From the NCBI GenBank assembly GCA_022072055.1, contig JAJVIK010000007.1:310001-374000 (forward strand): a DNA stretch of 64,000 nucleotides. Direction: 5' to 3'. Every line of letters begins with the position of its first letter. Positions within the stretch are counted from its first letter, which is position 1. The position numbers and the translations under genes were made by a program. Shown here piece by piece: positions 5,239-61,169 of the stretch. The notes beneath the pieces are model-generated. The model had not been told where the DNA came from. It saw only the letters and a list, made by a program, of their open reading frames with translations, and searched no databases. This stretch comes from a bacterium (GTDB lineage Bacteria > Hinthialibacterota > Hinthialibacteria > OLB16).

Positions 5239-8200
5239 ATGCGGTATCTATCTGCGGTGGGGGGAGTTCGAAGCCTTGGAAGGAGGGTGCTTATCGGTGG
5301 TTTCCTCTCCTGTTTCACGCTCTTTCCTGTTTTCGCCATCGAAGGTGACGTCAATCTCGACGGGTTTGTGGACGCGGAGGACCTCCTCATGCTCCAGGAG
5401 AACTGGCACGAGGGCCTTGCGGAGGGGGCATTCTCCGGTTCCCAGAAATGCGCCGCCTGTCACGAGGAAATCTACCAGAAGTGGCGGAGTTCGCTCCATT
5501 CGCTGCTCTATCGCGATCCCTCCGATCCGAGAGCGTCCGTTCTTCCCCCGTGGAGTGGAGATGTCACGGTGAGTGGTGGGGGTCTCTCCCTCACGGCGAC
5601 CCTGGAGATGCGCGGGGCCAGCGAGTACTGGGCGGTGCTGCACTTCGCCGATGGCGACCGCGAATACCGCGTGGACCGCGTCCATGGCGGTTATCCCATC
5701 GACGAGAACGAGGACCCTCGGGCTCCGAACACGGCGGGGCACTCCAAATGGATCGGCAAACAGCGCTATCACACCAAGATCGCGGAGGCATACTACATCC
5801 TTCCGTTCCAATGGAATCCGGTTCCGAACCTGGATGGCCAAGGCAAAGGGTGGGGACTGGGGACGGACGAGTTCGGCTCAAGTCCGGACAGCGACGAAGA
5901 GAAGGCGGCCTGGGTGGGCTACAACCTGGCCCATTGGGTGGATGCCTCCGGAAACTTTGTTCTCAACCTGGTAACCCGCCCGGAGGAGCGCAACTGCGCG
6001 GGCTGCCACCAGGCGGGTGTCAAGCCCGAGTTCGACGCGGATTTGAACCAGTTCCAGCACCACGCGATTGAGCCCAATATCGCCTGTGAGAATTGCCATG
6101 GCCCCGGCGGCAAGCATATTGTTTCGCAGGACCCGGCCGATATCACAAACCCCGAAGAGCTGGCGGACATGTTCCGTCAGAGCGAAACTTGCGGCCAGTG
6201 CCATTCTCGCGGGGAGAGCATCGACCAGATCAATGGTCTCGCGTTGGAGTATCCTTACGCGGATGGACGGACATTCCGCCCAGGCGACAGCTTGGAGGAG
6301 TTCTACCACTTCGACCTCGCCGCCAATCAATGGCCGGATGGAACCGCGAAGAAACACCACCAGCAGTTTGAAGACTTCATGAAGAGCGGGCATTTCCCGA
6401 TGGTTCGTTGCTGGGACTGCCACGACCCGCATGGATCCGACTTTGAGCATGACCTGGTCGCCAGCGCCCGGGACAATGGCCTCTGCCTGCGCTGCCACGA
6501 ACAGTCATACAATTCGAGCGCCCACACTCACCACGACGCCCCGGCCAACAATAACGGCTTCCCGCGCTGCGTGGACTGCCACATGCCGCCCTTCCAGCCC
6601 TCCGGGGTGAATTTCGACATTCATGCCCACGTCTTCAAAGTGGCCCTTCCGCAAGGAACTCTCGACCACCAGGGAACTGGGTCCGGTCAGCCGAACGCGT
6701 GCGCGATTTGCCATCGTTCGGAGAATGGAGCGACGGACACCAATATTGGGGTATGGAACGCGGCTTCGGACATCACCATCGCGACCTACCTGGATGGATT
6801 TGCGGACACATGGTGGGGGGACTACCCGACTCCCACTCCGACGCCGGACCCGGTTGTCCCGACTCCGACACCGACCACCATTCCCAATTATCTCGGGTCC
6901 GCCCAATGCCTGACCTGTCACGCCAACGCGGGCATCGTGGACAGCGTGACACCGGCGGTTCAGTGGCAGAACAGCCTCCACGCCGCCATCTACCGCGACC
7001 CGGATAGCGCCGAGGCGGAGTTCTTGATCCCCTCCGCCAGCTGGACGGGAAACGTCTCGGTTTCGTCTACCGCCTCCGGGGTGGTTTACCGCGTGACCGC
7101 AACCTTGGAGATCCGCAACACCGATGAGCGCTGGTTTGTGGTCCACTTCGCGGATGGCGACCGTGAATACAAGGTGGATCGAGTCCACGGTGGGAAAGCG
7201 ATTCCCGGCAACGTCGACCCGCGCAACCCGAATCGTCCGGGCGGAACCCAATGGATCGGGAAGCAGCGCTACCAGACAGTCATCGGCGATTCGTTTTACA
7301 TCCTGCCGTTCCAGTACAACCCGACCGCCGACCTGGACAACAAACGGAAGGGATGGGTCGCCTATAACCCGAACAACTGGGTCACGGCCCAGGGGAATTA
7401 CGCCCTGAATCTGACCAACCGCGCGGAAGAGCGCAATTGCGCGGGTTGTCACCAGCAGGGGGTGCGGCCTGAGCTGGTATACAACAATATCCTGAGCGCA
7501 ACGCAATTCGACGCCCACGCGGTGGAGCCGAACATCGGCTGCGAGAATTGTCATGGTCCCGGCGGGAACCATCCCGCCCTGGCGTTCACTCAACCGCCAG
7601 GCAAACGTGGCATCATTGTTCCCAGCATGCTTGACAACCCCGCGCGCAGGCTCGAAGCCTGCGGGCAATGTCACGGACGCGGCAAGAGCGTGGGTGAACT
7701 CGGCGACTACGAACTGGAGTATCCCTACAACGGAGAGCGGACCTACATTCCGGGGGATGTATTGGCCGACTTCTACACGGACGGCGGCGGGGACTGGCCG
7801 GATGGCACCTCACGGCAGCATCACCAGCAGTACCTCGATTACCTCTTGAGCAAACACTGGACCGTGGCCAAGTTCGAGTGTTGGGAGTGCCATGACCCGC
7901 ACGGGAGCGACAACGAGCACGACCTGAAGACAACCGCGCGAGACAACAGCCTATGTCTGGAATGCCACCAGGCGGCCGATTACAACACCACTGAACACAC
8001 ACACCATTCGGGCAATCTGGCTGGCGGCAGCCCGCGGTGTGTGGATTGTCACATGGCGGCGGTCCAGAACTCCGGGGTCAATTACGACATCCACAACCAT
8101 CTCTTCCAGGTGTTGTTGCCCGAGCGGACCTTGGCCCATCAAGGAACCGCCAATGGCTCTCCGAACGCCTGCATGTTGTGTCACCGCAGTTTCGGCGGGT

Positions 8201-8361
8201 TCACCGAAACGGACGCGAGTAAGTGGAACGAGGCCAACGACATCAAGATCGCCACGCTCCTTGATGAGATCGTGAGGCAGTGGTGGCCCGGCGCCCTGGC
8301 CAAGGAAGCGCAAGACAAGGGCAAGATCAATGTGATTCTGGAAGATCAACTGGATCAGTGA
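5239..8361 (+). CDS. Exported 16-haem c-type cytochrome made of two octahaem repeats
   Basis: A 1040-residue protein with a signal peptide (about residues 1-33) and a dockerin-like stretch (GDVNLDGFVDAEDLLMLQENW). Eight CXXCH sites run from about residue 71, a Thr/Pro linker follows near residue 535, and eight more start at about residue 557. The two sets share order and flanking residues (NCAGCHQ, CENCHGPGG, CGQCH, CWDCHDPHGSD, CLRCHE, RCVDCHM, CHRS). The N-terminal part of each repeat (YWAVLHFADGDREYRVDRVHGG) is also duplicated. It probably carries electrons in the periplasm or at the surface. AGGAGGAGG lies upstream of the ATG at 5239. It resembles cytochrome c554/octahaem-type proteins, but the reaction is unknown. 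Confidence 0.85.
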   Translation: MRYLSAVGGVRSLGRRVLIGGFLSCFTLFPVFAIEGDVNLDGFVDAEDLLMLQENWHEGLAEGAFSGSQKCAACHEEIYQKWRSSLHSLLYRDPSDPRASVLPPWSGDVTVSGGGLSLTATLEMRGASEYWAVLHFADGDREYRVDRVHGGYPIDENEDPRAPNTAGHSKWIGKQRYHTKIAEAYYILPFQWNPVPNLDGQGKGWGLGTDEFGSSPDSDEEKAAWVGYNLAHWVDASGNFVLNLVTRPEERNCAGCHQAGVKPEFDADLNQFQHHAIEPNIACENCHGPGGKHIVSQDPADITNPEELADMFRQSETCGQCHSRGESIDQINGLALEYPYADGRTFRPGDSLEEFYHFDLAANQWPDGTAKKHHQQFEDFMKSGHFPMVRCWDCHDPHGSDFEHDLVASARDNGLCLRCHEQSYNSSAHTHHDAPANNNGFPRCVDCHMPPFQPSGVNFDIHAHVFKVALPQGTLDHQGTGSGQPNACAICHRSENGATDTNIGVWNAASDITIATYLDGFADTWWGDYPTPTPTPDPVVPTPTPTTIPNYLGSAQCLTCHANAGIVDSVTPAVQWQNSLHAAIYRDPDSAEAEFLIPSASWTGNVSVSSTASGVVYRVTATLEIRNTDERWFVVHFADGDREYKVDRVHGGKAIPGNVDPRNPNRPGGTQWIGKQRYQTVIGDSFYILPFQYNPTADLDNKRKGWVAYNPNNWVTAQGNYALNLTNRAEERNCAGCHQQGVRPELVYNNILSATQFDAHAVEPNIGCENCHGPGGNHPALAFTQPPGKRGIIVPSMLDNPARRLEACGQCHGRGKSVGELGDYELEYPYNGERTYIPGDVLADFYTDGGGDWPDGTSRQHHQQYLDYLLSKHWTVAKFECWECHDPHGSDNEHDLKTTARDNSLCLECHQAADYNTTEHTHHSGNLAGGSPRCVDCHMAAVQNSGVNYDIHNHLFQVLLPERTLAHQGTANGSPNACMLCHRSFGGFTETDASKWNEANDIKIATLLDEIVRQWWPGALAKEAQDKGKINVILEDQLDQ

Positions 8362-8571: not shown

Positions 8572-9678
8572 ATGGCGGAGGTCAGCTTCAAGGGCGTGAA
8601 GAAGATCTTCCCCGGCGGGATTGTCGCCGTGGAGGAGTTCAACCTCGAAGTCCACGACAAGGAATTCCTGATCCTGGTCGGCCCCTCCGGATGCGGGAAG
8701 TCCACCTCCCTGCGGATGGTGGCGGGGCTGGAGGAGATCACCGACGGCGAGATCAGCATCGGCGGCAAGGTGGTCAACGATGTCCCCCCCAAGGACCGCG
8801 ACATCGCCATGGTCTTCCAGAATTACGCGCTCTACCCCCACATGACGGTCTACAAGAACATGGCTTTCGGACTCAAGCTCCGGAAGTATCCCAAGGCGGA
8901 GATCGACAAGCGGGTCCAGGAGGCGGCCCAAATCCTCGGAATCCCCGACCTGCTCGACCGCAAGCCCAAGGCGCTTTCCGGCGGGCAACGTCAACGGGTC
9001 GCGGTCGGTCGCGCGATTGTCCGCAAGCCCAAGGTGTTTCTCTTCGATGAGCCGCTCTCCAACCTCGACGCCAAGCTGCGCGTGCAGATGCGGACCGAGA
9101 TCTCCAAGCTCCACAACCGCCTGGAGACCACCATGATCTATGTCACCCACGATCAGCTGGAGGCCATGACCATGGGCGATCGGATCGTGGTGATGAAGGA
9201 TGGGCGGATCATGCAGGTGGATGACCCGATCACCCTGTACGATCATCCCAAGAACCTCTTTGTGGCCGGCTTTATCGGCTCGCCCCCGATGAACTTCATC
9301 CCGGGGCGGCTGACCTCCGAGGGGGGCGCGGTGTTCTTTGGGGATGGACACATCCGAGTGCAACTCGATGAACGCCTGCTCAACGGCCAGGTTCAGGGTT
9401 TCATGAATCGCAACGTGATCTTCGGGATTCGCCCGGAGGACATCAACGACACCCAAGAAGTCCGCGAAATCCGCCCCAACACCTCGGTCAAGGCCAAGGT
9501 CGAGGTGATTGAGCCGGTCGGCTCCGAATCGATCTGGTACCTTTCGGCGGGTCCCGCCACCTTCATCGCCAAGGTCAACTCGCATGTCCGCGCGGAGGTC
9601 AATCGGGAGAAGGAGATTGTCTTCAATGTCGCCAAGGCGCATCTGTTCGACCCGGCCACGGAGAGCGCCATTGTCTGA
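8572..9678 (+). CDS. MalK/UgpC-type ABC transporter ATP-binding protein
   Basis: A 368-residue ABC ATPase. Visible motifs are Walker [10 protein letters not shown] (about residues 37-45), the signature [15 protein letters not shown], Walker [13 protein letters not shown], the switch THD, and a C-terminal TOBE-like regulatory domain with GIRPEDI. This architecture belongs to ATPases that energise sugar, glycerol-phosphate or related binding-protein-dependent importers, and one ATPase often serves several permeases. No permease or binding protein is adjacent, so it is an orphan here. AGAGGAGA precedes the ATG. The substrate is undetermined. Confidence 0.88.
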
Positions 9679-10059: not shown

Positions 10060-11005
10060 CCCGCCGTCGGCGGGAAAGCACGCGAGTCAGCGCGCGCTGG
10101 GCCGGTTCGTCGGTGACAATCGGGCTGTAGTCGATCCCAAGCTTGAAGCATCCCGCCCTGAGCGCCTCGCGGTGCTCCTCCAGGCGGCGGCGGTAAGACT
10201 CCCGGATGTTTCGCCCCTCGGTTTCAAGCGGGGTCATCTCCTCCATCCCCTCCACTTCCAAGCTTCCAAGGAACGGAAACTCCACCTCCTCCGGGGTGAG
10301 CAGGTGGAAGACTAGTATCTCGAAGCCGCGGTGCGCGAAATGGGAAAGCCCCGATAGGGTCTCCTCCACCTTGTCCCAGAAGTCCGATATAAGGATCAAA
10401 AACCCGCGCCGTCGAATGCGCTGCGCGAGGAACTGCAGGGTGGAGCCGGTCTTGGTTTTCCATTGCGGACGGGCCAGCTCCAGCGCGTTGTAGATCCGGC
10501 GGAGCTGTTCGGGCGAGGCCACCGGCGCGAGCCAATAGCGCAGCTCCTCATCGTAGAGCGCCAGCCCCACCGAGTCCTTCTGGGTGATCAGCAGGGTCGA
10601 GATCGCGGCGGCAAGCTCGGCTCCATACTGCATCTTCTGACGCGGCCCATCGCCGTACAGCATCGAGCGGCTGACATCGAGCGTGATCACCGCGCGCACC
10701 GCGGTCTCCGCCTCGAAGCGCTTGATGTACAACCGGTCGCAGCGTCCATAGGCGCGCCAGTCGATGTGACGAAGATCATCCCCCGGAACATATTCGCGGT
10801 AATCGGCGAACTCGATGTTCTGGCCGAACTGGCGACTCTCGTGCTGTCCGGAGAGCATCCCCTCCGCGACCTTCCGGGCGCGGATGCCGATGGTCGAAAG
10901 CCCGGCCATCGGCATGGGCTTGACGACCCGCGCGCGACGGTCCTTCTCCTTGAGGAGGGACTCGCTCAGAGTTCCCAGCACATCCTCGGCTTTTTCAGTG
11001 GCCAC
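10049..11005 (-). CDS. DUF58 protein (MoxR-AAA associated, vWA-like)
   Basis: A 318-residue protein. SGQHESRQFGQNIEFADYREYVPGDDLRHIDWRAYGR is the conserved DUF58 core, followed by TLDVSRSMLYGD, a MIDAS-like D-x-S-x-S motif of von Willebrand A folds. DUF58 proteins usually sit beside MoxR AAA ATPases and act in assembly or maturation of other proteins; no MoxR gene lies next to this copy. A GTG at 11005 with AGAGG upstream is the likely start, because the reading frame before it is low-complexity and runs over the divergent tsaB region. Confidence 0.82.
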   Translation of the reverse strand: MATEKAEDVLGTLSESLLKEKDRRARVVKPMPMAGLSTIGIRARKVAEGMLSGQHESRQFGQNIEFADYREYVPGDDLRHIDWRAYGRCDRLYIKRFEAETAVRAVITLDVSRSMLYGDGPRQKMQYGAELAAAISTLLITQKDSVGLALYDEELRYWLAPVASPEQLRRIYNALELARPQWKTKTGSTLQFLAQRIRRRGFLILISDFWDKVEETLSGLSHFAHRGFEILVFHLLTPEEVEFPFLGSLEVEGMEEMTPLETEGRNIRESYRRRLEEHREALRAGCFKLGIDYSPIVTDEPAQRALTRVLSRRRRVTG

Positions 11006-11189
11006 GATTCGATCCTCTCTGGGAATGTACCCCGAACCGGACGGAGAGTCGATCCGGGTTTTGTTGGATACGGATGAGGACGAGAGGCGCTCGCGGGCGC
11101 GCTCGGCTTGGACCCCTTGCCCGCCGGGACTAAGATTTCCCCGCTCAGGATGCGCGCCGACCGGGCGGCCATCCCACGCGGGAGATCTT

Positions 11190-11939
11190 GTGAATTTCAC
11201 TTCCACCCCAAACTCGCTGGTCCTCGGCATCGACACCTCCTCCGCCTGGGGGAGCCTGGGCCTTATCCGGGGGGAATCCCTGGTGGCCTCGCTCACCCTG
11301 CGCGTGGCCGAAGGGCATGGCGGTGGTTTGGCCGGGCGAATCGACTGGCTGCTCCGCGAGGCGGCAGTGGACCCGAAAACCCTGGAGGCCATCGGGGTGG
11401 TGAGCGGACCCGGGTCGTTCACCGCGCTTCGAGTTGGGGTGGCGACCGCTCAAGGCTTGGGGCTGGCGCTCGGGGTTCCCGTGGTCCCCATCGGAACCCT
11501 GGAGGCGCTTGTGAGCGGGCTTCCGGAATCGGCGGGGCGTGTGCTTGCCCTAGCTCCGGCCAGAAAGGGGGAGGTTTTCGCGCAGGTTTTCCAGTCGGAC
11601 CCGGTTGTTGGATGGCTCCCGTGCGGTGTGGTAAGCTGTGTGAAACTGGAGGAGCTCGGGCGCGAGGAGCCGCCCGCTGACCTGGTGACTGGGCCGGCGG
11701 TGGATCTCCACAGGGAGGAACTGGCCGCGATCCTGGGCCCCGGGGTTCGGTTGGGCTCCGTGCTGGCAAGATACCCGCGCGGGGAAGTCGTGGCGCGCCT
11801 TGCCCTGAAGCGATTGACCGAGGGGAGTGAGAGTTTTCCCCCTGAGCAGGTGGAGATTCGTTATCTTCAGTCGCATGGGGCCCTCACCATCAAGGAGCGA
11901 AGCAAGGGGAACCGACATGCCGAAAAGGGGGAGTCCTAG
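11190..11939 (+). CDS. tsaB: tRNA N6-threonylcarbamoyladenosine (t6A) biosynthesis protein TsaB
   Basis: A 249-residue member of the ASKHA fold. LVLGIDTSSAWGSLGLI and GVVSGPGSFTALRVGVATAQGLGLALGVPVVPIGTLEAL are the family signatures. TsaB is the non-catalytic scaffold that dimerises with TsaD and, with TsaE, completes threonylcarbamoyl transfer to A37 of ANN-decoding tRNAs in the cytoplasm. GTG start at 11190 with GGGAG upstream. The C-terminal tail overlaps the next gene by 23 nt. Confidence 0.88.
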   Translation: MNFTSTPNSLVLGIDTSSAWGSLGLIRGESLVASLTLRVAEGHGGGLAGRIDWLLREAAVDPKTLEAIGVVSGPGSFTALRVGVATAQGLGLALGVPVVPIGTLEALVSGLPESAGRVLALAPARKGEVFAQVFQSDPVVGWLPCGVVSCVKLEELGREEPPADLVTGPAVDLHREELAAILGPGVRLGSVLARYPRGEVVARLALKRLTEGSESFPPEQVEIRYLQSHGALTIKERSKGNRHAEKGES

Positions 11940-13389
11940 TTTTCGAGAGTGGCGGGGGAAGGCCCTCACCGCCTGCTTGCTGGCATTTGCCTCCAGTTCC
12001 TCGGCGCAGGAGACCAGCTTTATCGAGGCGGCCTATGCGCGCTGGGAGTCGGTCCTCGCCGACCTCCACTCCGGGAAGATCAAGCGCCCCGAGGCGCCTC
12101 CCGCCGAAAAAGCTCCCGATGAGTCTCATGTCCTTCCCGCTTCGGAAGTCACCCCAATCATTCCCATCCCCACCGACCTGGTGATCCCGCAGCTCCAGCT
12201 TCCTCCTCCGGGGGGGGGAGCCGCGATCATCGACGGACGCGTGATACGGACTCGGCCTCGCGCCGCCCCCAACCTGTTCGGAGAGACGGTCTCGACCGCC
12301 AGCAGGGTGGCGCCCGCCTCCTCGGCCGTGTCGCTTCCGGCGGCCACGGCCACCTTGGCGCCGACAGCCACTCCGGCTCCGGTGAAGATCAAAGTGGCCC
12401 GCCTGGTGGAAGGCAAGATTGTGATGGTGGAGATCGAGGTGACCCCGACTCCCGCGCCCACCCAGGTTGCCCCGGCCACTCCAACCGCGGCGGCCCCGGC
12501 CCAAGTGAAAGCGGCCACCGGGGTCATGGCCGAGCTCCAAGAGCGCCTCGCGGTCGCGGTGAAATCTCCGGAAAAACCGACCGAATTCCAACCTCGACAG
12601 CTCGCCAAGATGCGCGAGGAAATCTCCCGCATCGCCGCTAACTTGAAGAAGGAAAAGAAACCCCCCGAGGCCGCGGCCGGACCGGTGGCGAGTCTCACTC
12701 AAGTCACCCAACTGCTGGTGAAAATCCATCGCCTTTCGGCGCAAGCCAAGGGAGCGAGTCTGGATGCCCCCACCGCCAAGGCGATCCAGTCCCTGCTCTT
12801 CCCCGAACCGCCTAAACCCCAAGCCAAGGCGGCAAGCCCTCAAGTCGCCGGGGCGACAATGCAGTCCGCCACGCGATCCGCCTCCGCGTCTCCCGCAACC
12901 TCCGGGGGAGATGACCTCTTCATTGTGGAGGAAGAGGAACCCCAGGCCTCCACTCAACGGGAAATCTTTATCGATCCGGTCACCGGTCAGTATGTCTATG
13001 AGGATGGGACCCCGGTCTCGCCGCCTCAACAGCAACAGCCCAATCCTTATTCCCCGCCTCCACCCCCGCCCCAAGAGCAGCCGCCACCCGTGGAATACAG
13101 CCAACCGCCTCCGCCTCCGCCGCCACCTCCGGAGTATTATGTTGAGGAGGGAACCATCGGGGGCGAGACCGGCGCCGATCCGGGTTATTACGAAGACCAG
13201 GGGTATGTCGAGGAGAACCCGGACGAGATGGAATATGAGGAGGATCCCTCCTTCCAGGAGGAGCCGGAGGTCTGGGAAGAGGGTGAATTCCAAGAGGGCG
13301 AGGGGGAGTATTACGAGGAGGATTACACCGAGTTTGACGAAAACGAGGTTGATCCGGACTCGTTTGAGGAGAACTTCGAGTTTGAGTGA
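11917..13389 (+). CDS. Exported Pro/Thr-rich protein with acidic C-terminus, function unknown
   Basis: A 490-residue protein with a signal peptide (about residues 1-31, ending SSSAQ). It has Pro/Ala/Thr-rich linkers (VTPTPAPTQVAPATPTAAA), a helical Lys/Glu-rich middle part, a Pro/Tyr/Gln-rich stretch (PPPPPQEQPPPVEYSQPPPP) and a strongly acidic tail rich in Glu, Asp and Tyr. No enzymatic motif is visible. The composition suggests an extended envelope or cell-surface protein. The ATG at 11917 lies inside the end of tsaB. I do not recognise a family. Confidence 0.6.
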   Translation: MPKRGSPSFREWRGKALTACLLAFASSSSAQETSFIEAAYARWESVLADLHSGKIKRPEAPPAEKAPDESHVLPASEVTPIIPIPTDLVIPQLQLPPPGGGAAIIDGRVIRTRPRAAPNLFGETVSTASRVAPASSAVSLPAATATLAPTATPAPVKIKVARLVEGKIVMVEIEVTPTPAPTQVAPATPTAAAPAQVKAATGVMAELQERLAVAVKSPEKPTEFQPRQLAKMREEISRIAANLKKEKKPPEAAAGPVASLTQVTQLLVKIHRLSAQAKGASLDAPTAKAIQSLLFPEPPKPQAKAASPQVAGATMQSATRSASASPATSGGDDLFIVEEEEPQASTQREIFIDPVTGQYVYEDGTPVSPPQQQQPNPYSPPPPPPQEQPPPVEYSQPPPPPPPPPEYYVEEGTIGGETGADPGYYEDQGYVEENPDEMEYEEDPSFQEEPEVWEEGEFQEGEGEYYEEDYTEFDENEVDPDSFEENFEFE

Positions 13390-23995: not shown

Positions 23996-24071
<76 letters not shown>

Positions 24072-26056: not shown

Positions 26057-26434
26057 ATGGAAGACGAAGCGCGAGACGACCGGCCGTGCGTGTTCTCCTA
26101 CACGCGAAGGCAGGCCCTAGAAGACGGAGTTCTGGTGGACGTGAGCGAGCTCGCTCGGGAGGCGGGTTTCAAGCTCCCGGTCGCGGTCACGTCGGAGGTG
26201 TGGTGGGGGCACGTCGCCAGGGCCGCGCCGCCCGAGTCTGAGAGCGGCAGGCTCTGGGACCTCCTAAACGTCCTGCGGATGCTCATCCGCGCGCTGCCGG
26301 ACGGGAGCAGGGCGGACCGCCTGGAGTTCCGGGTCAGGTTCGGCGAGGAAGACGTGGACCTCTGGGCCTTGGTCGGGCCCGGCGACCGGATCGACGAGCC
26401 GGTCTTGACGATCATGGTGGTGGGGGAGGACTAA
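26057..26434 (+). CDS. DUF6573 family protein
   Basis: A 125-residue protein whose start, FSYTRRQALEDGVLVDVSELAREAGFKLPVAVTSEVW, matches the DUF6573 family found on phages and plasmids. Function unknown. AAGGAGG lies 9 nt before the ATG. It is the first gene of the right early operon. Confidence 0.75.
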   Translation: MEDEARDDRPCVFSYTRRQALEDGVLVDVSELAREAGFKLPVAVTSEVWWGHVARAAPPESESGRLWDLLNVLRMLIRALPDGSRADRLEFRVRFGEEDVDLWALVGPGDRIDEPVLTIMVVGED

Positions 26435-26764: not shown

Positions 26765-27041
26765 AGAGAGGACGGCGGTCGTCTTCAGGGTCTGGCGTTC
26801 TCGTCCCAGGACGGTCCTCGCCCTGTTCCCGCTCGAACCCGCCGACGCCCTCGGACGATGGTGCCTCTCGTACGAGCGCGTGGGACAGCACGGAGCCGCC
26901 GACTACCTCGCCTGCCTCGACGGCACCAGGCCAGCGACGCTCGAAGAGAGCGCCGACCTGCGAGAGGAGCTGGAGCGCATCGGGTACCAGCTCGACGTGG
27001 TCCAGAGGAGGCCGGTTGACGCGCCGCGAGTCCGGCGCTAA
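26751..27041 (+). CDS. Small phage/plasmid-type protein, paralogue of the previous gene
   Basis: A 96-residue protein. ALFPLEPADALGRWCLSYERVGQHGAADY is a block seen in small unannotated proteins of phages and conjugative elements (recalled, not searched). It overlaps the previous gene by 14 nt. Function unknown. Confidence 0.72.
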   Translation: MRRPEERTAVVFRVWRSRPRTVLALFPLEPADALGRWCLSYERVGQHGAADYLACLDGTRPATLEESADLREELERIGYQLDVVQRRPVDAPRVRR

Positions 27042-27066
27042 CAGTTCTACCAGCGGAGGTGCGAAG

Positions 27067-27900
27067 ATGGCCGTTCCAGCGAAAGTTCAAGAGAGGATGT
27101 GCGCCGGGTTGGCGCGGATGAAGCCGGTCCTGCTCCAGCAGAGGCAGAGGGACGTTTCCGAGGCCGACACGGTCACGCTCGTCAAGGACACTCTGGAGTG
27201 CGTGTTCGGCTACGACAAGTACGCCGAGCTGACCGGAGAGCTCGCGATCAGGGGGACCTACTGCGACCTCGCGGTGAAGCTCAACGACAAGGTCCAAGCG
27301 CTGATCGAAGTGAAGGCTGTCGGGATCTCGCTCGACGACCGCCACCTGAAGCAAGCGGTGGACTACGCCGCGAACCACGGTTGCGAGTGGGTGGTTCTGA
27401 CGAACGCCATCGTGTGGCGGCTCTACTGCGTGGTCTTCGCGAAGCCGATAGACAAGCAGCTCGTCCTCGATTTCGACCTCTCTCAGCTCGACCCGAAGCG
27501 CGAAGAGGTCGCCGAGGCGCTCTATCCGATCACGCGCGAGGGAGTGCTGAAGGGAGCGCACGCGGCCCTCCGGGACAGGCAGGTCGCCACGAGCCGCTAC
27601 ATGCTCGCGGCGCTCGTCGTCGAGAACGAGAACGTCCTCACTACGATCAGGCGAGAGCTGCGTCGAGTGGTGGACATCGGAGTCGAAGAGGACGAGCTCT
27701 CGCGGATCCTCGCCGACCAGGTCGTCAAGAGAGACTGCTTCGAGGGAGTCCTGGCCGAGCAGGCCAGAGAGCTCATCCAGAGCAGGGTCGGTCGGGCGAT
27801 GCGTAAGCCTAAACGGAAACGAGAAGAGTCCTCTGGAGACGACCAGAGTCCGCCTGCGGACGTCGTGGAGCTCCGTCCCTCCGAGGAAGGCGCGGCCTGA
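27067..27900 (+). CDS. Stand-alone PD-(D/E)XK nuclease domain, HsdR N-terminal type
   Basis: A 277-residue protein. The type I restriction HsdR_N-like nuclease core is visible: GELAIRGTYCDLAV with Asp67, ALIEVKAVG with Glu81 and Lys83, and QAVDYAANHGCEWVVLTNAIVWRLY with the Q-x-x-x-Y motif at 97-101. No helicase, specificity or methylase domain is attached or adjacent. The C-terminal half is helical and ends in a Lys/Arg tail. GGAGG precedes the ATG at 27067. It may process DNA, degrade host DNA or exclude other elements. Confidence 0.78.
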   Translation: MAVPAKVQERMCAGLARMKPVLLQQRQRDVSEADTVTLVKDTLECVFGYDKYAELTGELAIRGTYCDLAVKLNDKVQALIEVKAVGISLDDRHLKQAVDYAANHGCEWVVLTNAIVWRLYCVVFAKPIDKQLVLDFDLSQLDPKREEVAEALYPITREGVLKGAHAALRDRQVATSRYMLAALVVENENVLTTIRRELRRVVDIGVEEDELSRILADQVVKRDCFEGVLAEQARELIQSRVGRAMRKPKRKREESSGDDQSPPADVVELRPSEEGAA

Positions 27901-28222: not shown

Positions 28223-28606
28223 TCACCACCTGGCTCTGTCGCGCCGGGCGTCCACGTGGCACCCCCACCTGTAGCGGTGGTAGCCGCTGTCGCGGCACTC
28301 GCTCTCGCAGATGAACGCGAACATGTCGTGCGTCAGGTACTTCGGCCACCACAGGTCCAGAGCGTCGCCGAACAGGTGCCTCGACTTCTCTTTGCCGCCC
28401 ACGCTCGCGTTGTGAGCGGGACAGCGCACGCCGGACTCGACGTGGATGGGACAGTCCCTCCCCGCCGCGACGCACGACTTGGACCTGATCCTCTCGAACA
28501 ACGCGGCGGCGTCCGGAGAGAACGCCCTGAGGCCGCATCCGCAGCGGCACTCGACCTCTCCCCACGTCAGGTGCTCCGAAGGACCGAGCGAGGCGTCCCA
28601 GCTCAC
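28223..28606 (-). CDS. Endolysin, peptidase M15 (D,D-carboxypeptidase) family
   Basis: A 127-residue single-domain protein with the M15A zinc motif SRHLFGDALD (Ser75-x-His77-x-x-Gly80-x-Ala82-x-Asp84) and the second metal-ligand block HVD (His117-x-Asp119). It has a cysteine-rich N-terminus (ECRCGCGL). These enzymes cut peptide cross-links in the cell wall. No signal peptide, so it needs the holin-like neighbours for release. It starts with GTG in a GTGA overlap and converges on the right early operon. Confidence 0.85.
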   Translation of the reverse strand: MSWDASLGPSEHLTWGEVECRCGCGLRAFSPDAAALFERIRSKSCVAAGRDCPIHVESGVRCPAHNASVGGKEKSRHLFGDALDLWWPKYLTHDMFAFICESECRDSGYHRYRWGCHVDARRDRARW

Positions 28607-29028
28607 TTGACCGGCGGCGTGCGGTAGAGCAGGCGCTTCAGCGGCGCGGCGGCGTATTTCACCGCCGCAGAGATGATCGGCTTCGAGACCAGCCGCTTGA
28701 GCCAGCCGACGTTCCGCTTTTCGAGCTCGGCGCTGACGAGCGAGACGGCGTAGTCGTAGCGTTCGCCGCTGGGCTTTCCGGCTCGCTCCAGCTCGGCGGC
28801 GGTGACGACCGCCCCGACGACGTCGATCATCACTCCGAAGTCCTTCCAGACCGAGTGGAGCCCCGCGAGCGCGAGCCCCGCGAGCGCGATGCAGACAGTC
28901 GTGAGGTCTCCCTGGTACACTTCAGGCAGTCCCGCGTGCGCCGCCGCGTTGGCGAGGATCGTCCCGAGCGCCCACTTCGTCATCAAGATCGCCTCCGAGT
29001 GCTGCTTGGTCGTGACTTCGTTGCTCAT
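28603..29028 (-). CDS. Putative holin-like membrane protein
   Basis: A 141-residue protein with two hydrophobic stretches (about residues 17-35 and 43-66, with TVCIALAGLALAGLHSVW) and a helical C-terminal half ending in a basic tail. Position directly upstream of the endolysin and overlap by GTGA support a lysis role. The ATG at 29028 overlaps the previous stop (ATGA). Assignment as holin is from context; no family signature is recognised. Confidence 0.5.
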   Translation of the reverse strand: MSNEVTTKQHSEAILMTKWALGTILANAAAHAGLPEVYQGDLTTVCIALAGLALAGLHSVWKDFGVMIDVVGAVVTAAELERAGKPSGERYDYAVSLVSAELEKRNVGWLKRLVSKPIISAAVKYAAAPLKRLLYRTPPVK

Positions 29029-29168
29029 CGTTTCGCCTTCTTTCTCGCCCAGCGGACCAAGTCTCTGAGCCGCCGACCGTGCTTTCCGAACCGCATCTTG
29101 AACCCGAACCTCCACCCCTTCGTCTCGTGGGCCGGACCTTTTGGGTCCAGCGGGTCTCCCACCCCCAT
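29025..29168 (-). CDS. 47-residue basic protein of the lysis cassette
   Basis: A 47-residue protein, MGVGDPLDPKGPAHETKGWR followed by an Arg/Lys-rich helix (GKHGRRLRDLVRWARKKAKR). It is supported by exact coupling at both ends: its ATG overlaps the stop of the gene before (TGATG) and its TGA overlaps the ATG of the gene after (ATGA). The C-terminal helix is amphipathic and cationic, so it could bind membrane or nucleic acid. Function unknown. Confidence 0.55.
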   Translation of the reverse strand: MGVGDPLDPKGPAHETKGWRFGFKMRFGKHGRRLRDLVRWARKKAKR

Positions 29169-29852: not shown

Positions 29853-32660
29853 TTAGTTGTTCAGCGCCGACGACTGGAGCATCCACTCGTCGCCGCCGAC
29901 GTAGACGAACGTCACGACGTCGTTCGCCCCGTCCAGAGTGATGTTCGCCCCGCACTGGATGTTCCCGCTCCCGTCGCGGATCGTGATCGTCTTTCCCACA
30001 GTCCCGACGAAGGTCACTCTAGAACCCACTCCGGCGGCCCCGTCGATGTCGTAGAGGTCGTCGGACCCGGCGGTGCAGGTCAGCTTGTGGACCGAGCAGC
30101 TAATCGTCACGGCGTTTCCGCTGATCTCAAGCGTGGTCAGCGAGCTCCCGTTGTGCACCTGCCCGAGGGTCATCGTGTCGCCCTGGTCGGAGTCGACCGA
30201 GAACTTCGTGGTCGTGCCGCCCGAGGCGTAGATCCTCCACTCGTTCGTCGTCGCCGAATCGTAGGCGATGCCCGACTCCCCGGTCCCGTTCCCGTACAGG
30301 ATCACGCCGCCAGCCGTGTTGTAGCTCCCGATGATCGGCTTGTACGCGTAGACGTTGCCCGAGTCGAAGGCGAGCCTGATAGTGTTCTTGTGCACCACGT
30401 AGCCGAGGTCGGACCCGTCTACGTACCGGAGCGCGACCCCGTCGCTGATCGAGGTCCCGGCGATAACCTCGCTCGTCCCCCCGACGTTGGTCACGGTCAG
30501 AGTCGAGGTGCCGCTACCGGGCCCGGTCACGGTGACGTTGCCCGCGTCGGAGACCGAAAGCCGGGTGGTCCCAGACTGATTCTTTATCGAGAACGATCCC
30601 GAGGTGGTCTTCACCGTGACCTGGTCGGTCACGAGCCCGCCGGAGAGCTGCATCGTCCCGTCGTCGTGGTCCAGCCAAGCGTAGGTCGAGCTCGCGTTTC
30701 CCCAGGACGTCCTGTTGTTGACCGTGTCGAACGTGTTCCGGATGTCGTTGTCCCCGCCCCAGAAGACGACGCCGGACCCGTCCACCTTGAAGCGCTCGAA
30801 GCCCGCCGTGTAGACCGTGACTCTCCCGCCCGTTTCCTGGTTCGTGAGCACCAGGTCGCCCGTCGAGGTCTCCAGGCCCACGAGGACCCCGTCTCCCGCG
30901 TTGCTCCCGGTCGAGGTGTTGATGAACTGCATGATCGCCGAGCCGGAGTCTGGCTGGTAGAGCGTGACGAGCCAGTTGTAGAGCGCCGTGCCGAGGGAGA
31001 GCTTAGCGTGCCCCGCCACCGTCTCCTTGATCTGGAGCATCGTCGCCTCTCCAGGCGTCGGGTACGTGTACTTGTTGATCTTCAGCGTCTCTCCGGTCGC
31101 GCTGGTCTCGAACTGCCACTCGCCGCCGTACACGCTGGGGTTCCCGCCGAAGTGGAGCTCGGCGTTCGCGTGAGTGAGGTAGGTCTTCTGGAGCGGGAAG
31201 AAGACGCCGTTCCCGCTCGTCCCGTCGAGCGTGATGTAGGTCGTCGAACCCATCTTGAGCGCGCCCGAAGTGTTGACCGTCCCCACGAGCTGGAACCCTC
31301 CCGACCCGAAGCCGATCTGGACGGTCCCCACGTTCGATCCGTTGGCGAGGTGGAGGACGCCGGTGACGGCGTCCCAGTAGTCGGGCTGCGTCGCGGGGTC
31401 GTTCGCCGCTCCCACCTGGACGTAGCCGTCGGTGACGTACGTCCCGTGCACCTGGAGCGCGTTCGCGTCGAGGAAAGTTTCAGGCCCGACCATGAGCCCG
31501 GTGGGCCCGAGGCTGACAGACTCGCTCACGAAGAGGTACCCGGTGTCGGTCATCCTCACCCCGTTCTCGAAGCCGAACGAGTCGTCCTCGATCCACGCCT
31601 CGCCGGAGTCCCGGACGGCGTCGTGCGAGAACACCACCGCGTCCCTCGCGAAGATGTTCTTCGCCCAGAGCGAGCTCTTGCTAACCAGGGCGTCGATCAC
31701 TCCGTTCCCGGTCGTCTTCCAGGTGGACCGTCCCGAGTTGATGAGGACGTTCGACACCGGGTTCCCGTCCACCTCGTCGGGCGGGAGCGGAGTATCGGTC
31801 GGCGTCGCCGTGTTCGTGGGAGTGGGCGTCGGCGTCCCTGGGCCCGGAGTGGGAGTCCACGTCGCAGTGTTCGTCGCCGTGGGCGGCACCGGAGTGTTCG
31901 TCGCCGTCGGGAACGCGGTCGGAGTCTCCGTCGGCGTGTGCGTCGGAGTGGACGTCGGAGCTCCGACCGGAGTGTCCGTCGGAGTCGGAGTCGGTCCGGA
32001 GTGGACGACGACCAAACGCGGGCGCTTCGTGGGGTCGTCCCAACGCACGCGCATCTGCCTGTCGGAATTGCGCATGATCAGGACGAACGAGAGCGTGAAC
32101 CCCTCGGCTGGCATCCTGTCCGGAGCGCAGCAGTAGTTCCCCATGACGTTGAACGTCACGGTCTGGTTCGGTCCGTCGCTCGGCTGGGCCTCTATCGACC
32201 CCGCGTGGATCGAGTCGTCCGGGTGCGTGTGGGCGACCTGCGGGATCATCCAGGACTCGTCGTACTGCCACGGGTAGTTGTTGTCGCCGTCGAACCAGTC
32301 CCAAGTCGGGAGGTTGACCGGCGCGCGCAGGACTTTGTACAGGAGGAGCGTCTCGGGAAAGGTGAAGCTCTCCTCGTACTCGTCGAACTTCAGTTCGACC
32401 GAGTCCAAGACGACGTTCGTCGGGACGGAGCCGGGCTCGACGGTGAAGGTGACAAGCAGGTGCTGGTAGATGTCGTACGAGGGGAAAGTCGAGACGGTGA
32501 GCGCCGTCCCGTCGAGCTCGTGGTGCGCGCGCGGGTCCTCGTAGACGAGCAGGCCGTCGTCGAGGGGGTCCGCGTCGCAGTAGACCGTCACCGTCGCCGC
32601 TTCGACGGAAGCGCTGGCCAGGAACGCCGCCAGGAACGCCGCCAGGAACGCGCGCCTCAC
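29853..32660 (-). CDS. Fibre-like protein with signal peptide, DNRLRE-like domain and Thr/Pro linker
   Basis: A 935-residue protein in four parts: a Sec-type signal (about 1-22, MRRAFLAAFLAAFLASASVE); a beta-sandwich (about 23-217) resembling DNRLRE/CBM96 domains; a Thr/Pro-rich linker (about 218-292); and a long Gly/Thr/Ser/Asn-rich beta-helical fibre ending in TVGKTITIRDGSGNIQCG and DVVTFVYVGGDEWMLQSS. The position after the baseplate genes suggests the receptor-binding fibre, but an export signal is odd for a virion protein. The GTG start overlaps the lipoprotein stop (GTGA) and has GGGAGG 6 nt upstream. A GTG at about codon 25 would remove the signal. Confidence 0.72.
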   Translation of the reverse strand: MRRAFLAAFLAAFLASASVEAATVTVYCDADPLDDGLLVYEDPRAHHELDGTALTVSTFPSYDIYQHLLVTFTVEPGSVPTNVVLDSVELKFDEYEESFTFPETLLLYKVLRAPVNLPTWDWFDGDNNYPWQYDESWMIPQVAHTHPDDSIHAGSIEAQPSDGPNQTVTFNVMGNYCCAPDRMPAEGFTLSFVLIMRNSDRQMRVRWDDPTKRPRLVVVHSGPTPTPTDTPVGAPTSTPTHTPTETPTAFPTATNTPVPPTATNTATWTPTPGPGTPTPTPTNTATPTDTPLPPDEVDGNPVSNVLINSGRSTWKTTGNGVIDALVSKSSLWAKNIFARDAVVFSHDAVRDSGEAWIEDDSFGFENGVRMTDTGYLFVSESVSLGPTGLMVGPETFLDANALQVHGTYVTDGYVQVGAANDPATQPDYWDAVTGVLHLANGSNVGTVQIGFGSGGFQLVGTVNTSGALKMGSTTYITLDGTSGNGVFFPLQKTYLTHANAELHFGGNPSVYGGEWQFETSATGETLKINKYTYPTPGEATMLQIKETVAGHAKLSLGTALYNWLVTLYQPDSGSAIMQFINTSTGSNAGDGVLVGLETSTGDLVLTNQETGGRVTVYTAGFERFKVDGSGVVFWGGDNDIRNTFDTVNNRTSWGNASSTYAWLDHDDGTMQLSGGLVTDQVTVKTTSGSFSIKNQSGTTRLSVSDAGNVTVTGPGSGTSTLTVTNVGGTSEVIAGTSISDGVALRYVDGSDLGYVVHKNTIRLAFDSGNVYAYKPIIGSYNTAGGVILYGNGTGESGIAYDSATTNEWRIYASGGTTTKFSVDSDQGDTMTLGQVHNGSSLTTLEISGNAVTISCSVHKLTCTAGSDDLYDIDGAAGVGSRVTFVGTVGKTITIRDGSGNIQCGANITLDGANDVVTFVYVGGDEWMLQSSALNN

Positions 32661-32833
32661 GACGCGCCTCCCGGCGCTGGGCTCGGCGACGGCACCGGAG
32701 TCGGGATCGTCCTCGTCTCGCCGTTCGGGTACGTCAGGACGGACGTGACCGGGTCGTAGCCGACCGGGTCGACCGTCGGAGCGGCGCAGCCCGCGAGGAC
32801 CGCGAGGACCGCTGTCAAGAACAACTCGCGCAT
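32657..32833 (-). CDS. Small proline-rich lipoprotein
   Basis: A 58-residue protein with a complete lipobox: hydrophobic LFLTAVLAVLAGC with Cys16 as the lipidation site. The mature part is 43 residues and ends TIPTPVPSPSPAPGG. GGAGG lies 7 nt before the ATG. Size, lipobox and proline-rich tail recall Rz1-type outer spanins, but there is no obvious inner-membrane partner and it lies upstream of the fibre, far from the endolysin. A superinfection-exclusion lipoprotein is the alternative. Confidence 0.65.
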   Translation of the reverse strand: MRELFLTAVLAVLAGCAAPTVDPVGYDPVTSVLTYPNGETRTIPTPVPSPSPAPGGAS

Positions 32834-44313: not shown

Positions 44314-44781
44314 TCAATTGTTGGACGTCGGCATGCTCGCTGGCAGACCACGAATGACCGTCGCGCTGTAGTGCGCTCCGGTCGCGCCGGAACCGATCAC
44401 AGACGCCACCCTGAGGTAGCGCTTCGACCCGATGTAGCCGATCGTGTAGGCTTTGTTCTGATCCGGAGTTCCGTCGAGAACCACCGCCGAGCCGATCAGA
44501 TAACCCGCCGCGACGTCGGTGTAGGAGCTGTTGTCCGCGCTGTCTTCTAGATGGATCGTGTGAGTGCCGTTCGTGTAAGCGCCTGCGCTGATCACCACTG
44601 TTGCGGCGTCGTAGCCCGCGAGGTCCACGCCGGTGCCGTTCGAGGTCCCGGTCGTGTAGACCGCCGAGTTCAACGAGTTCTTCGCGCTCAGCCTGTTCTT
44701 CTGATCGCGGAGCGCGTAGGCGCTTCCGACCATCACGATCATCAACGCCACGAGGGCGACGTTTTTGAAGCAGTCTCTCAT
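44314..44781 (-). CDS. Capsid decoration-like protein with an N-terminal signal peptide
   Basis: A 155-residue protein. The mature part (YTTGTSNGTGVDLAGYDAATVVISAGAYTNGTHTIHLEDSADNSSYTDVAAGYLIGS, then YTIGYIGSKRYLRVASVIG) is the beta-sandwich found downstream of the major capsid gene in many siphophages. Unusually it begins MRDCFKNVALVALMIVMVGSAYA, a textbook Sec signal. GGAGA lies 7 nt before the ATG, and no cytosolic start follows before the domain. A TATAGA element lies at 44801-44806. Confidence 0.72.
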   Translation of the reverse strand: MRDCFKNVALVALMIVMVGSAYALRDQKNRLSAKNSLNSAVYTTGTSNGTGVDLAGYDAATVVISAGAYTNGTHTIHLEDSADNSSYTDVAAGYLIGSAVVLDGTPDQNKAYTIGYIGSKRYLRVASVIGSGATGAHYSATVIRGLPASMPTSNN

Positions 44782-61132: not shown

Positions 61133-61169
61133 CAAGAGGTCAGGGGTTCGATCCCCCTCAGCTCCACCA
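61133..61169 (+). repeat. attR: 37-bp copy of the tRNA-Ala 3' end
   Basis: Identical to attL over 37 bp. It is the displaced end of the host tRNA gene, followed by host sequence (acccctcac). It has no cloverleaf of its own. Confidence 0.95.

Follow-up and report, generated by a model that had tools for sequence, protein, structure and literature searches.

The fibre-like gene at positions 32660 to 29853 raises the question of why a structural protein of a tailed phage should begin like an exported protein of its bacterial host, and of where such a protein would join its particle. In this study, the question was pursued in the window, that is, the whole stretch of 64,000 nucleotides in which the gene lies. 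The coordinates given in the original prediction (29853 to 32660) were correct, and the strand, which it lacked, is minus. The gene encodes 935 amino acids in four parts: a predicted signal peptide (residues 1-21), a DNRLRE-like domain (22-222), a Thr/Pro linker (about 222-296) and a fibre part (about 297-935).

The N-terminus was examined at the level of the start codon and of the signal itself. As predicted originally, the GTG start has GGGAGG ending 6 nt before it and opens a signal peptide, which was flagged by our rule-based detector. The alternative that translation begins at a GTG near codon 25 was also considered; GTG24, like every other in-frame ATG, GTG or TTG in the first 320 codons, showed no Shine-Dalgarno-like sequence when judged by eye. 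Only one start is credible for this gene, and only one for the decoration gene described below. The signal (32598 to 32660, minus strand) contains two Arg residues, a hydrophobic core and the residues SVEA, with cleavage predicted before the following Ala (VRRAFLAAFLAAFLASASVEA, then ATVTV); thus n, h and c regions and an AxA-type site lie behind a good start. Signals throughout this study were called by the same home-made detector, whose rules were shaped on the window. The motif RRAFL may also suit the Tat route, and the host encodes TatC. The host also has LptD and therefore an outer membrane. The hydrophobic core consists of three 12-nt tandem units (AFLA, 32617-32652), in which in-frame slippage could alter the length of the core.

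The domain behind the signal (31995 to 32597, minus strand) had no match in Pfam, NCBIfam or PHROG, and hmmscan at E <= 10 did not report the fibre for DNRLRE (NF033679), the curated cut-off of which is thus not reached. A comparison of profiles did reveal a resemblance: residues 22-222, aligned by hhalign with a profile built from 24 DNRLRE domains of this phylum, gave a probability of 65% and a score of 33.6 over 140 columns, whereas 242 host protein segments scored at most 19.0 (mean 11.6, sd 2.2). An earlier profile that contained one mis-cut row gave 29.7 (probability 42%) for the fibre domain, with five other fibre segments at no more than 12.8 and five shuffles at no more than 13.0. The match is weak but clear, and it is this similarity above controls that places the domain with DNRLRE. 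Exported DNRLRE proteins (NF033679) were found in 12 of the 14 genomes of the phylum, and the fibre domain follows directly after the signal, as it does in the host ORFs C3 and C11; it differs from those proteins in lying under NCBIfam detection and in being fused to a linker and a phage fibre. An AlphaFold model of residues 1-313, built without relatives, reached a pLDDT of 40 and was set aside.

The Thr/Pro linker (31773 to 31997, minus strand; about 75 residues) is a host idiom, occurring in four ORFs in 400 kb of host sequence chosen without regard to linkers; the N-terminus is signal-like in three of them, and the other ORF is truncated by the end of its locus. The likeness to two host proteins that had been claimed for it stands in part: the linker of the cytochrome (5239-8361) resembles it fairly well (PTPTPTPDPVVPTPTPTTIP), while that of the envelope protein (11917-13389) is Pro/Ala-rich and less alike. 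At the loci L005, L019 and L023, host proteins with such linkers end in what we take to be dockerin-like calcium-repeat motifs (DVNGDGVVNALDLI and similar). The remaining 640 or so residues of the phage protein are fibre-like by position and composition. Their C-terminal 148 aa matched phage tail proteins weakly (E = 0.02; with a longer query, E = 0.5), Pfam and PHROG gave no fibre match for the 935-aa protein, and no relatives of it were found in IMG/VR, in phage records or in the 13 other genomes of the phylum.

The gene was foreseen as a fusion of a host surface-protein front with a phage fibre. The architecture agrees, in that signal, DNRLRE-like domain and Thr/Pro linker together form the layout of host exported proteins, exemplified by C3 and C11 and by the host linker ORFs; an origin from this very host is not indicated by the sequence comparisons. 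The N-terminal domain had no sequence match among host proteins (best other E = 1.12), so any transfer would be old or from elsewhere. Moreover, the domain had no relative in GTDB contigs, and no host-type DNRLRE domain was found in phage records.

The gene lies in a prophage at 24035 to 61169, bounded by a 37-bp exact direct repeat (24035-24071, the 3' end of tRNA-Ala, and 61133-61169, behind the integrase). An integrase match (PF00589, 59943-61103) and genes for TerL, a protease (PF04586), a capsid protein (PF05065), a portal of the HK97 type and a tape measure give the prophage the look of an intact temperate tailed phage. No relatives were found in IMG/VR through its portal or through the tail gene upstream of the fibre. 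On the plus strand near the left end are a DUF6573 gene (26057-26434) and a restriction-type HSDR_N_2 gene (27016-27900), which run against the late genes and are therefore perhaps carried for the lysogen.

The fibre gene has the place of a tail fibre, being a large gene directly after tail genes of the same direction (tape measure, central-fibre-J-like with E = 1.5e-4 and GPD-like with E = 0.018). It is also the second of three adjacent genes with signals. The first encodes a putative lipoprotein of 58 aa (32657 to 32833, minus strand) with an LAGC lipobox and a Pro-rich tail; its stop and the start of the fibre gene have 4 nt in common. The third, 15 nt downstream of the fibre (29837 to 29379, minus strand), has AGGAGG and a signal and encodes a predicted exported protein of 152 aa. 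These gene positions bear on the proposal that the protein is displayed on the lysogen, for example to exclude other phages. Its layout resembles that of host surface proteins, and lambda Lom, which likewise has a signal peptide and lies between fibre genes, is expressed in the lysogen according to the excerpts of one source (PMC12309495), which also describe Lom as an outer-membrane barrel, a form unlike a fibre. The fibre gene, however, is embedded in the late operon by the 4-nt overlap and the 15-nt gap, and a scan found no promoter-like site near it, which is weak evidence with 0.2 sites expected. A single late run of genes lends no support to expression in the lysogen; lysogen display, also part of the original prediction, was thus not borne out and is regarded as distinctly improbable.

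A second structural gene of the same phage carries a signal. The gene at 44781 to 44314 (minus strand) encodes a capsid decoration protein of phrog_5707 (E = 1.4e-24), whose relatives are annotated as capsid cementing or decoration proteins; 53 relatives were found in IMG/VR, and the gene follows the capsid gene, the usual place for this family. A 23-residue signal (MRDCFKNVALVALMIVMVGSAYA, cleavage predicted between AYA and LRD) precedes LRDQKN, at the position where relatives begin with M-R-D, M-K-D or similar. The distance from start to core is thus 51 aa, compared with 27-34 aa in 51 of the 53 IMG/VR relatives; in the other two (50 and 130 aa), the script recognised no Shine-Dalgarno start. 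By the same script, none of the 53 has a signal-like start. Nor was a signal found in the relative in genome G009 or in any of the seven translated relatives from phage records (12 records contain a relative, the other five being taken as duplicates by name and place). The window protein is therefore alone among these relatives in having a signal, which appears to have been added exactly at the ancestral N-terminus. Given this placement, removal of the signal after export makes most sense. No start codon occurs at the junction of signal and core, and no second copy was found in the genome, hence no cytosolic version.

The structural comparison was consistent with this assignment. The predicted model (pLDDT 81.8, a single domain) has the jelly-roll fold of phage decoration proteins and aligned with those of Milano (8fwg; Z 10.4, rmsd 3.2, 114 aligned) and BPP-1 (3j4u; Z 10.1, rmsd 2.6, 107 aligned). 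Residue 1 of the capsid chains of Milano (8fwg) and of phage 7-7-1 (9hz8) aligns to model residues 22-23. Together with Carin1 (8cjz) and Streptomyces phage Chymera, these phages hold the decoration and cementing proteins that the window protein resembles in sequence family, locus and fold.

The solved structures with the highest Z, however, were those of YomS of SPbeta (11.4) and XepA of PBSX (11.2), which share the decoration fold. In the excerpts of the report concerned, XepA is described as exported and as absent from mature particles (PMC6834076). This combination of the same fold, export and absence from virions constitutes the strongest argument against a coat added late, and it favours the main competing explanation, namely that both proteins are exported in the lytic phase and never enter the virion. 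On that account, the decoration-fold protein would aid lysis, as has been proposed for XepA, and the fibre would occupy receptors on dying cells and debris, thereby sparing the progeny. The fibre gene does lie among genes for exported proteins, and a gene that by eye looks holin-like (28603-29070) is nearby. There are differences, however: XepA is a two-domain dumbbell from a lytic-cassette gene, whereas the window protein is a single domain, which YomS also is, and stands at the capsid locus, groups with phrog_5707 and with annotated cementing and decoration proteins, and has no second, cytosolic copy. Exclusion of both proteins from the virion is considered rather unlikely.

Exported proteins near tail genes also occur in a second prophage of the same genome (G000 contig C22, 3332-44856, loci L133-L135), which has a 49-bp att repeat and several signal genes between its tail and lysis genes. 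It is unrelated to the window phage, its portal being of the SPP1 type instead of the HK97 type. One of its proteins (22042 to 21209) combines a signal, a PKD-like domain (E = 2.3e-4, just under the Pfam cut-off), a Thr/Pro linker and a domain without an assigned family. Another (20231 to 19320, L133/L134) is a signal-bearing endolysin-like protein of 303 aa with lysozyme-like and peptidase-like parts, presumably a secreted lysis enzyme. Directly after the fibre-like gene of C22 (26367 to 25150) lies a gene (25139 to 24648) whose signal-bearing product is a homologue of the window's 152-aa protein, with 31% identity over 138 aa and an alignment score of 110; shuffles gave 28 +/- 4.9, and none of 3000 scored as high. 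Across the phylum's 14 genomes, this family was found in these two places only, plus a marginal match of 28 residues in G001 (E = 0.04). Since the homologue follows the fibre gene in both, the two phages of one host are predicted to have an exported partner in common, and at least two unrelated prophages of this host thus seem to share parts of the arrangement.

The fibre-like protein of C22 has a hydrophobic N-terminus, MTHRAKLFICGGAAIGWGFLLMGVTYVIDG, that is more anchor-like than cleavable. This segment, together with the known assembly of tailed phages inside the cell, would suit a further explanation: that the hydrophobic N-termini are no export signals and are retained, serving during assembly as a tip of hydrophobic character or as a tether to the membrane, with virions made in the cytoplasm as usual. 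Against it stand the AxA-type cleavage sites, the decoration signal that ends exactly at the ancestral start, and the linker and DNRLRE-like domain that accompany export in this host. Retention of the N-termini is accordingly judged improbable.

Signal-bearing proteins within head and tail gene runs were also seen in other phages. The phage contig C59 of G009 has two among its head and tail genes (8636 to 7581 and 5393 to 4941), and the IMG/VR locus L092 has one at 10470-11162; two of these genes lie just after a decoration gene. The L092 gene is directly behind its decoration gene, and its VKSGG..SGGTFTAQSGST stalk resembles the C59 protein at 8636 to 7581. No homology of the L092 and C59 proteins to the window fibre was detected, and searches for relatives of the other signal-bearing proteins found none, one returning a match at E = 9 and another only the query itself. 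Two kinds of candidates were rejected. A supposed capsid protein with a signal (L082, 8507-9964) is taken as a start artefact in a longer ORF, as its PHROG major head match begins at profile position 264, and the portal-like matches in G002 and G006 sit among host genes.

In terms of frequency, three phages of the phylum yielded 10 signal-type genes of at least 110 aa over 91.8 kb, whereas 46 IMG/VR loci totalling 582 kb yielded 9 (p = 6e-5), a comparison that is biased, as it was the linker that first drew attention to C22 and the detector, applied alike to both sets, was shaped on the window. The 46 loci are the surroundings of decoration-gene relatives, and some of the nine genes are spurious. 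With the window alone, p was 0.03. The enrichment is indicative only. In the phage-like locus L153 of G001, there was no signal gene among the phage-like genes listed.

Taken together, the signals, the placement of the decoration signal, the domain, the linker, the operon order and the common exported partner support the export of both proteins well at the level of sequence; that they are in fact exported, cleaved and joined to the virion is what we infer from these features. Decoration proteins attach to the outside of finished heads, and late addition is thus feasible. We propose, tentatively and as quite possible, that the fibre and the decoration protein are both exported late in infection, reaching the particles at lysis. 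At that late stage, the two would be made with cleavable signals, along with the 152-aa exported partner and the small lipoprotein, and would pass through the inner membrane to fold either in the periplasm or on the surface of the cell. When the cell lyses, they would bind particles leaving the cytoplasm. The DNRLRE-like domain and the stiff linker would serve as an exposed stalk that may be glycosylated, and the next host would be bound by the C-terminal part of the fibre. The exported proteins are perhaps disulfide-bonded, or glycosylated on the Thr/Pro linker. The fuller form of the proposal, that a tailed phage finishes its particles outside the cytoplasm, with exported decoration protein and fibre processed alongside a partner and joined to heads and tails when the cell lyses, is conceivable and somewhat more doubtful.

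The domains involved are known, and phage proteins with signals have been described before, among them lysis enzymes, spanins and Lom (excerpts of PMC12309495 and PMC3556154). In the open literature searched, which excluded subscription papers and preprints, we found no report of a capsid decoration protein that has acquired a signal, nor of a fibre whose front is built like that of an exported host protein. The accepted view is that tailed phages are assembled entirely within the cytoplasm. That view is challenged directly, and in a way that can be tested, by a phage in which one signal lies exactly before a decoration protein and another begins the fibre. Looking for signals that precede conserved structural genes also provides a search rule for other phages. 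If true, a coat added outside the membrane would permit virion proteins that are oxidised or glycosylated by the host, and a particle surface resembling that of the host.
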